Position numbers and translations under genes: made by a program
Notes under the pieces: model-generated
The model's input: only the letters and a program-made list of their open reading frames with translations
Databases searched by the model: none
Told to the model about the DNA's origin: nothing
In this document: positions 17,467 to 27,286 of the stretch, piece after piece
Position numbering within the stretch: the stretch's first letter is position 1
How the letters are laid out: each line of letters opens with the position of its first letter
DNA from: Nitrospira sp.
GTDB lineage: Bacteria; Nitrospirota; Nitrospiria; Nitrospirales; Nitrospiraceae
Direction: 5' to 3'
Assembly (NCBI GenBank): GCA_029240595.1
Contig: JARDZZ010000006.1
Location: forward strand, 1-38,548
Length of the DNA stretch: 38,548 nucleotides

Positions 17467-18114
17467 CTACCGGGCGGCTTTCAAGCGCGGGGGCGCCTCG
17501 TTCACGAGCGGCGTAAATTGCTCGCTCTCGAAGTCGTAGACCCAAAGGTCACCGGTCAGAATGGAGTACACCCAACCGTGGAGATCGACCTTCCCTCTGC
17601 GGAGCTGCAAGGCGACGGAGGGATGCGTTCTGAGATGATCTAACTGGGCGCGGACGTTTTCCTGCGTCGTTTTGATCAAACGGTCATTGCCTTCGAGGTC
17701 GGTATAGTGCTCCCGCATCAAGCGTCGCGTGGTCTCCGCCTGCCCGACCCATTCCCTCACGGCGGGCAACTCCTGGACCTCTTCCGGGTGCAACAACGCT
17801 TTCATGACGGCGCAATCGGTATGACCGCACACGATGATGTGTGGCACTTTGAGTACGGCCATCGCATACTCGATCGTCGCGGTGCTTCCTCCTTGCATCG
17901 ATCCGTAGGGCGGAACCATGTTGCCGGCGTTCCGTAATATGAAGAGTTCCCCCGGCTCGGCCTGAGTCATCAGGGTTGGATCGACACGGGAATCCGAACA
18001 GGTGATAAACAGGGCGCGGGGTTCCTGTTTTTGCGAAAGGCGGATAAAGAGGTCCTTCTTCCTTCCGAAGACCTCGCCGTGGAATTTCAAAAAGCCTTTA
18101 ACGAGTTTTTCCAT
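17467..18114 (-). CDS. beta-carbonic anhydrase
   Basis: 215 aa; CSDSRVDP and CGHTDCAVMKALL zinc motifs. Confidence 0.92.
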   Translation of the reverse strand: MEKLVKGFLKFHGEVFGRKKDLFIRLSQKQEPRALFITCSDSRVDPTLMTQAEPGELFILRNAGNMVPPYGSMQGGSTATIEYAMAVLKVPHIIVCGHTDCAVMKALLHPEEVQELPAVREWVGQAETTRRLMREHYTDLEGNDRLIKTTQENVRAQLDHLRTHPSVALQLRRGKVDLHGWVYSILTGDLWVYDFESEQFTPLVNEAPPRLKAAR

Positions 18115-18163
18115 CGTCTATCTGCTCCGCTCTCCCATCACCGCACGCTCAAGCACGCCGCTG

Positions 18164-18580
18164 TCAACGTCCGCCGTTCTGTAGCTCCCGGTCCATCGTG
18201 AAGACGAAGACCCGTTCACCGAGTTGCACATCGATGTCCGTGAAGACGCCCAACACCTTGGCACCGGTGATCTCGCTCACCTGCTCGCAGAGCTTGTCGC
18301 GTCCTTGCGCAATTAAATTCTGCCGCAGACGCTTCACCATGTCGACACCTTCCGCAGTTTTTGCCAACTGCCGTTCCGCCGGCGTCAGGACCCCCTTGAG
18401 GCGTACGACCACCAAATCACGGACGATACTGGCCCGGACGTCGTCCGGGCCCCGGCCCATGAACTCCTGCTCGAACTTGATGATGGCGTTGCGGATCGCG
18501 GTTTCCACGGTTGAGCCTGCGGAATTATAGAGTTGCACGGAATCATGAACAAGTAGATCCTGAGCCCTTTGTCTCACCAT
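18164..18580 (-). CDS. mpsC: DUF2294 / MpsC family protein
   Basis: 138 aa; IKFEQEFMGRGPDDVRASIVRDLVVVRLKGVLTPAERQLAKT, typical of DUF2294 (MpsC). Confidence 0.75.
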   Translation of the reverse strand: MVRQRAQDLLVHDSVQLYNSAGSTVETAIRNAIIKFEQEFMGRGPDDVRASIVRDLVVVRLKGVLTPAERQLAKTAEGVDMVKRLRQNLIAQGRDKLCEQVSEITGAKVLGVFTDIDVQLGERVFVFTMDRELQNGGR

Positions 18581-18647
18581 CCCCGTCTGCTGTGGGCCTT
18601 TAGTGCTATCCGGCGGTGGTATTGAGCCCTGAGTCCGACCTGCTCTG

Positions 18648-26700: not shown

Positions 26701-26888
26701 ACCATGAGCCTATGCGGCTTCTCACCCTGATTGAAGCGCCTCGTGAGCGGATCGAGAAGTTGATCTCTCGGCATGAAGTACTCCAGCACTATTACCATAA
26801 CGAGTGGGTGCATCTCGTCGCCTTAGACCCTGAGGATAAAATATGGTATCGATATCACCCGAAGGGAGTATGGCACGTTATTCCGTAA
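23688..26888 (+). CDS. dabA: DabA / MpsB (DUF2309), probable inorganic carbon transporter subunit
   Basis: 1066 aa, GTG start; [15 protein letters not shown] (C-x-D) and [33 protein letters not shown] (H, C) match the DabA zinc-site residues. Confidence 0.92.
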   Translation: [1066 protein letters not shown]

Positions 26889-26950
26889 AATGCCTGTAGT
26901 GCGAGAGTGGGCATACACTGTTTGAGTGGGCGTGGGAAAGGAGTCCGTGA

Positions 26951-27286
26951 ATGGGCCTCATATTGCATCCAATGAAGGAAATTCGGGTGATCGTGGCCGG
27001 TGAGCAGCGTGCCTTTGTGACTGATTTGCTGGACCGCGTCAATGCCACTGGATATACGATTGTAGGAAATGTGTCCGGCAAGGGTCATCACGGCGTTCGC
27101 GAGGCGCATTTCATGTTCAGTGAACAGGAAAGCCTCGAAATGATCATGACCGTGGTACCTCAGGAGAAAGTCGAGCCGATTTTGGCGGGACTACGGCCGC
27201 TGTTTGAACGGCATTCAGGCGTGATGTTCGTTGCCGATGTCGCCGTGAGCCGTCAGGAATACTTTGCGAAAAGCAAACCGGCCTGA
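26951..27286 (+). CDS. P-II-like signalling protein
   Basis: 111 aa; MKEIRVIVAGEQRAFVTDLLDRVNATGYTIVGNVSGKGHHG...LEMIMTVVPQEKVEPILAGLRPLFERHSGVMFVADV; RBS AAAGGAG. Confidence 0.75.
   Translation: MGLILHPMKEIRVIVAGEQRAFVTDLLDRVNATGYTIVGNVSGKGHHGVREAHFMFSEQESLEMIMTVVPQEKVEPILAGLRPLFERHSGVMFVADVAVSRQEYFAKSKPA

Follow-up and report, generated by a model that had tools for sequence, protein, structure and literature searches.

We think it likely that a gene cluster in the window analyzed here (the whole stretch of 38,548 nucleotides, a contig of a Nitrospira-type MAG that is 85% complete) encodes a DAB1-type, three-subunit, DIC-accumulating complex, in which CO2 hydration is driven by the PMF, the third membrane subunit (B3) is non-conducting, and the two DabB paralogues (B1 and B2) are isoforms. 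The clustering of the dab genes is far beyond chance, and the same order is found in dozens of Nitrospirota genomes.

Gene content and comparison with known DAB systems

Pfam searches found the beta-CA, MpsC, DabB, antiporter-like, DabA and P-II genes at the positions given in the original prediction, and the Pfam families, together with the complete zinc and active-site motifs of DabA, uphold its assignment of the locus to the DAB/Mps systems. The genes are as follows.

17467..18114, minus strand: beta-carbonic anhydrase, 215 aa (Pfam PF00484, 160 bits)
18164..18580, minus strand: MpsC (DUF2294), divergent from the dab operon (PF10057, 121 bits)
18869..20566, plus strand: dabB1, NuoL-like DabB paralogue 1, 565 aa (PF00361 and PF00662)
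20695..22393, plus strand: dabB2, NuoL-like DabB paralogue 2, with a frame break near 21852 (ORFs and alignment to relatives)
22381..23700, plus strand: third membrane subunit B3, NuoM-like, 439 aa (PF00361 only, 39 bits)
23688..26888, plus strand: dabA, long form, 1066 aa (PF10070, 902 bits)
26951..27286, plus strand: PII-like protein of the CPII type (carboxysome-associated PII) (PF00543, 79 bits)
27337..27651, plus strand: small conserved protein downstream of PII (no Pfam match; kept in relatives)

A three-subunit, PII-linked DAB is already known. DAB1 of Halothiobacillus neapolitanus consists of DabA1 (Hneap_0907), DabB1 (Hneap_0909) and an extra transmembrane protein, Hneap_0908, with a neighboring PII gene (PMC13144422, PMC7714395, PMC4633670), and dabAB1 with the interstitial PF00361 gene rescues CA-free E. 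coli (PMC7714395). The third subunit is thus not the departure from known DABs that had been supposed. In DAB1 and on plasmid 1 of Nitrobacter hamburgensis, the order is dabB, a small PF00361-like protein, a dabA of ~1040 aa and PII, as in the window, where the long DabA is followed by a PII that its best PDB matches (5d4n and 5d4l, E 1e-32) place in the CPII type. B3, which lies between dabB and dabA, is homologous over residues 167-413 to the 253-aa Nitrobacter plasmid subunit in the same position (hhalign 95.8%, E 6.7e-9; the best of 30 shuffles reached 0.5%), and the two share a Pro at the TM8 Lys position. This homology required profiles, and a search of plasmids with B3 gave no match at tblastn sensitivity. 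The homology was shown with the Nitrobacter subunit, whereas the likeness to Hneap_0908 is one of arrangement. The window differs from DAB1 in its duplicated dabB, in an extra N-terminal part of ~160 aa in B3, in the divergent MpsC and beta-CA genes, and in its genome, in which ATP-citrate lyase is encoded and no match to RuBisCO was found (about 15% of the genome is missing).

Three other systems can be compared. DAB2 of H. neapolitanus (DabA2/DabB2; 9rd0) has its catalytic and proton-path residues in common with the window, but it has two subunits, without a third, and its DabA is 200 aa shorter and lacks the helical insertion at 603-725. For both DAB2 and DAB1 of this species, the literature documents energy-coupled uptake of CO2 or rescue of CA-null cells. 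Homologues of all three staphylococcal MpsABC proteins are present in the window, where MpsC is divergent, unlike in staphylococci; MpsAB is argued to be Na+-linked, and the accessible part of the source names neither a third membrane subunit nor PII. In the 2017 COGNAT paper on YbcC/COG3002 operons (PMC5700660), operons of the NuoL-YbcC-PII type are described as clade B and those that include an additional NuoM-like gene as clade C, in which, unlike in the window, ybcC precedes nuoL; the accessible part of the paper does not describe a tandem-DabB form.

Active-site and proton-path residues of DabA and the DabB paralogues

DabA has the Cys2His zinc site of PF10070 (C487, H760 and C775) and the Asp-Arg dyad (D489-R491). 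In comparison with DabA2 of 9rd0, the zinc ligands, the dyad, the gate residues and the strictly conserved Leu658 are kept, and the equivalents of DabA2 C351, D353, R355, H524, C539, R653, W656 and L658 are conserved in the family; the position of DabA2 H585 is Met in the window's DabA. The AlphaFold model (pLDDT 83, pTM 0.78) predicts a single finger, with E586 at the tip of two paired helices (548-577/581-601), after which comes the additional helical domain (603-725) of the long form. The VES-G motif aligns E586 with the finger Glu of DabA2, E444, and this Glu is invariant across 30-31 long DabAs; because phmmer aligned the finger region differently, the equivalence is drawn from the motif and the model. 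A Foldseek search with the DabA model returned nothing useful, the fold library apparently lacking the 9rd0 DAB2 entries.

The original prediction had described two tandem DabB-type genes of equal length (1698 nt). As assembled, dabB1 is 1698 nt, and dabB2 runs from an ATG at 20695 to a stop at 22393 (1699 nt) with a change of frame near 21852, so that it is covered by two ORFs (20620-22077 and 21860-22393). Alignment showed that dabB2 is 2 nt short (GT--CCACC against GTGACCACG) relative to relatives, in which the frame is intact. The assembled frame could be taken to mean that dabB2 has truly become a pseudogene in this genome, leaving B1 alone to serve DabA. We consider this highly improbable, because gyrB of the same contig (35845-38339) is likewise split by a frame change, which is a sign of indel errors in the contig, and because the part of dabB2 that lies 3′ of the break has a pN/pS of 0.18-0.20, indicating that purifying selection continues. 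These two observations point to a likely error in assembly or sequencing, or else to a mutation of very recent origin, and the frame break is probably artefactual.

Both B1 and B2 retain the equivalents of DabB K235, H260, K310, S316, H339, H343 and K347, the set that is functionally required in DAB2 (PMC13144422). The seven positions are kept in roughly 94% of relatives or more, and at an eighth, Ser256, B1 has Thr and B2 has His. The two proteins are, by these residues, predicted to be potentially active DabB paralogues. The tandem pair is kept in 29 loci, and in a tree made by a quick method the duplication falls within Nitrospiraceae, where the single-copy lineages diverge before it. In the same quick tree, the position of L024 hints at gene conversion.

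By homology to DAB2, DabA would be a zinc enzyme of the beta-CA-like kind that inserts a helix-loop-helix finger into the proton channel of DabB; protons moving down the PMF through DabB would open DabA and allow one-way hydration of CO2 to cytoplasmic HCO3-. Since the homologue MpsAB has been argued to use Na+ and to transport HCO3-, the coupling ion or the substrate could differ here. The stronger form of this idea, that the complex is an MpsAB-like Na+/HCO3- symporter instead of a CO2-hydrating machine, draws on the MpsAB homology and on the mpsC gene next door. It seems quite improbable to us, given that the zinc site, the finger Glu and the DabB residues match those of DAB2, which is proton-coupled and does not need sodium (PMC13144422), and that deletion of mpsC in S. 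aureus caused no growth phenotype (PMC6689103).

The third membrane subunit and the number of channels

To read the proton-path positions of B3, we aligned 61 homologues with E. coli NuoM, an alignment in which the E144 column is placed with the least certainty. The position of E144 (TM5 Glu) is P, L, F or S in all 61 homologues, that of K234 (TM7 Lys) is mostly L, that of K265 (TM8 Lys) mostly P and that of E407 (TM12 Glu) mostly F, and neither Glu nor Lys occurs at any of the four. B3 thus lacks the residues of a proton-conducting subunit of the NuoM/MrpD type. Because every tested charged residue of the NuoM proton path is lost, and these positions are uncharged in 61/61 homologues, a third proton channel is rejected, and the multi-channel form that the original prediction had envisaged is not supported as far as the third subunit is concerned. 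By its residues, B3 is to be read as a channel-dead relative of an antiporter subunit.

A B3 profile separated B3 from NuoM cleanly (at least 152 bits against at most 105), and dabA lies directly downstream of B3 in 57 of 59 places, the exceptions being a fragment at a contig end and one genome (G185) with unrelated genes next. DabB and B3 form a single open frame at seven loci, one of which is cut by a contig end. These natural fusions argue that DabB and B3 are neighbors. One such fusion is predicted to fold as one unit (pTM 0.86), and Foldseek matched it with NuoL-type chains. In some genomes (f18), the B3 slot holds a membrane gene that profiles did not link to B3, and hence not all long DabAs are accompanied by a recognizable B3. 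B3 is also absent beside the short DabAs of ~830 aa, which have one DabB (L085, L092, L113 and L114), and beside several second copies of DabA and Mrp-linked DabAs.

The lost residues of B3, the natural fusions and the one predicted finger in DabA lead us to infer that B3 would act as a scaffold and B1 and B2 as isoforms. B3 would then be a degenerate antiporter-like protein, most likely a structural neighbor of DabB, and we propose that it perhaps docks the helical insertion of the long DabA; B1 and B2 would most likely be alternative channel subunits for one DabA-B3 module.

Two alternatives concern the place of B1. One is that B1 and B2 act in one complex, with B3 as a spacer, so that at least two protons pass per CO2 hydrated. 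The proton-path residues retained in both DabBs and the persistence of the duplication would fit this reading, as would the proposal of the COGNAT paper that the ion number is set by how many membrane genes there are (PMC5700660). The channel-dead B3, the one predicted finger and the 1:1 heterodimer formed by DAB2 (PMC13144422) make it unlikely, as do the composition of the natural fusions (one DabB and one B3) and the single DabB of many related genomes. Moreover, the ORF map and the relatives show that the B2, B3 and A genes overlap while the B1-B2 gap varies in width. The second alternative is that B1 stands outside the complex and is an independent NuoL-like cation/proton antiporter, linked to it by coincidence. 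The variable spacing would be in keeping with this, and B1 evolves slightly faster than B2 (pN/pS 0.22 versus 0.15-0.20), but B1 occupies the same operon position in the 29 loci and retains the DabB-type residues, and we hold this alternative to be improbable too. A broader proposal, in which two exchangeable or simultaneously active DabBs and a channel-dead spacer provide tunable or higher proton-to-CO2 coupling and MpsC is a real DAB partner outside staphylococci, appears to us rather doubtful. We favor B1 and B2 as isoforms around a non-conducting B3, a subunit whose loss of channel residues sharpens the question of whether the small subunit of DAB1 is a spacer, a clamp or a regulator.

Distribution in Nitrospirota and neighboring genes

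DabA was found in 83 of 198 Nitrospirota genomes. Scanning named genomes with B3 yielded 33 Nitrospira-type loci, and the surroundings of dabA were inspected at 52 further places. The rule in Nitrospiraceae is MpsC (usually divergent), dabB, a second dabB in some, B3, long dabA and PII; the same module without the second dabB recurs in other Nitrospirota families. This survey bore out the original prediction in part: the additional membrane subunits occur together with DabA in dozens of Nitrospirota genomes and the gene order recurs, but the three-subunit architecture had been described before. The tandem DabB duplication, the channel-dead B3, the DabB-B3 fusions and the linkage of MpsC in Nitrospirota are possibly new; we found no earlier description of these four features in the literature covered, and the main 2019 DAB paper, which lay outside that scope, may contain some of them.

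Other arrangements were seen in the survey. At L118 14-10709, a DabA homologue heads an Mrp-type cation/proton antiporter operon with MpsC divergent, the other members being MnhE, MrpF, MnhG, MbhD/E, MnhB and NuoK-, NuoM- and NuoL-like proteins by Pfam; gene sizes and positions suggest similar operons at L098, L101 (the same genome as L118), L103 and L106. A second operon type, dabB-dabA-PII without B3, occurs at L067, L069, L071 and L073. At L069, the genes that follow it encode a sensor kinase with GAF/PAS domains and a sigma-54 regulator of the NtrC type, and genes of similar size are found elsewhere; the 666- and 466-aa genes near the second dab operon, considered as a 2-oxoglutarate carboxylase, are this kinase and regulator. 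L069 has a further DabA without an adjacent DabB, near a PAPS-reductase-domain gene and a gene of the isocitrate/isopropylmalate dehydrogenase family. At L119, an MpsC-DabB-B3 remnant lacks dabA, and the genes after it resemble, on inspection by eye, a toxin-antitoxin pair.

MpsC (PF10057) is linked to the DabA/DabB homologues well beyond the window: of the 66 Nitrospirota genomes that carry it, 51 have a dabA no more than 11 kb away from it. This recurrent linkage contradicts the published statement that mpsC is not collocated outside staphylococci (PMC6689103), and it reopens the case of a protein earlier dismissed as unrelated. In our scheme, MpsC would be an associated protein, and the CPII protein probably senses the bicarbonate or adenylate state and regulates the complex. 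The small protein at 27337-27651 is kept 3′ of PII in many Nitrospira relatives, whose sequences point to a later start and a length of 89 aa.

Nitrospira are major nitrite oxidizers that have no carboxysomes and assimilate carbon through the reverse TCA cycle. HCO3- from the DAB complex would feed this type of autotrophy, and the cytosolic beta-CA may serve the CO2-consuming reactions of the cycle by supplying CO2 from the HCO3- pool or by equilibrating the two. The beta-CA is the sole PF00484 match found in the genome. It adjoins the dab locus at only two surveyed loci, here and at L025, which rules out a conserved CA-dab linkage. DAB1-type loci with a long DabA are a widespread trait of Nitrospiraceae among the surveyed genomes, and the role of DAB outside carboxysome-bearing organisms thereby becomes testable.

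No enrichment of sigma-70 promoters or terminators was seen. Elsewhere in the window, a predicted protein of 1097 aa (12547-15840) has no Pfam or NCBIfam match. A SulP-family anion transporter, possibly for bicarbonate, is encoded at 5551-7137. The dab operon is probably near the replication origin, since dnaA, dnaN and gyrB (33064-38339) are some 6 kb away from it.
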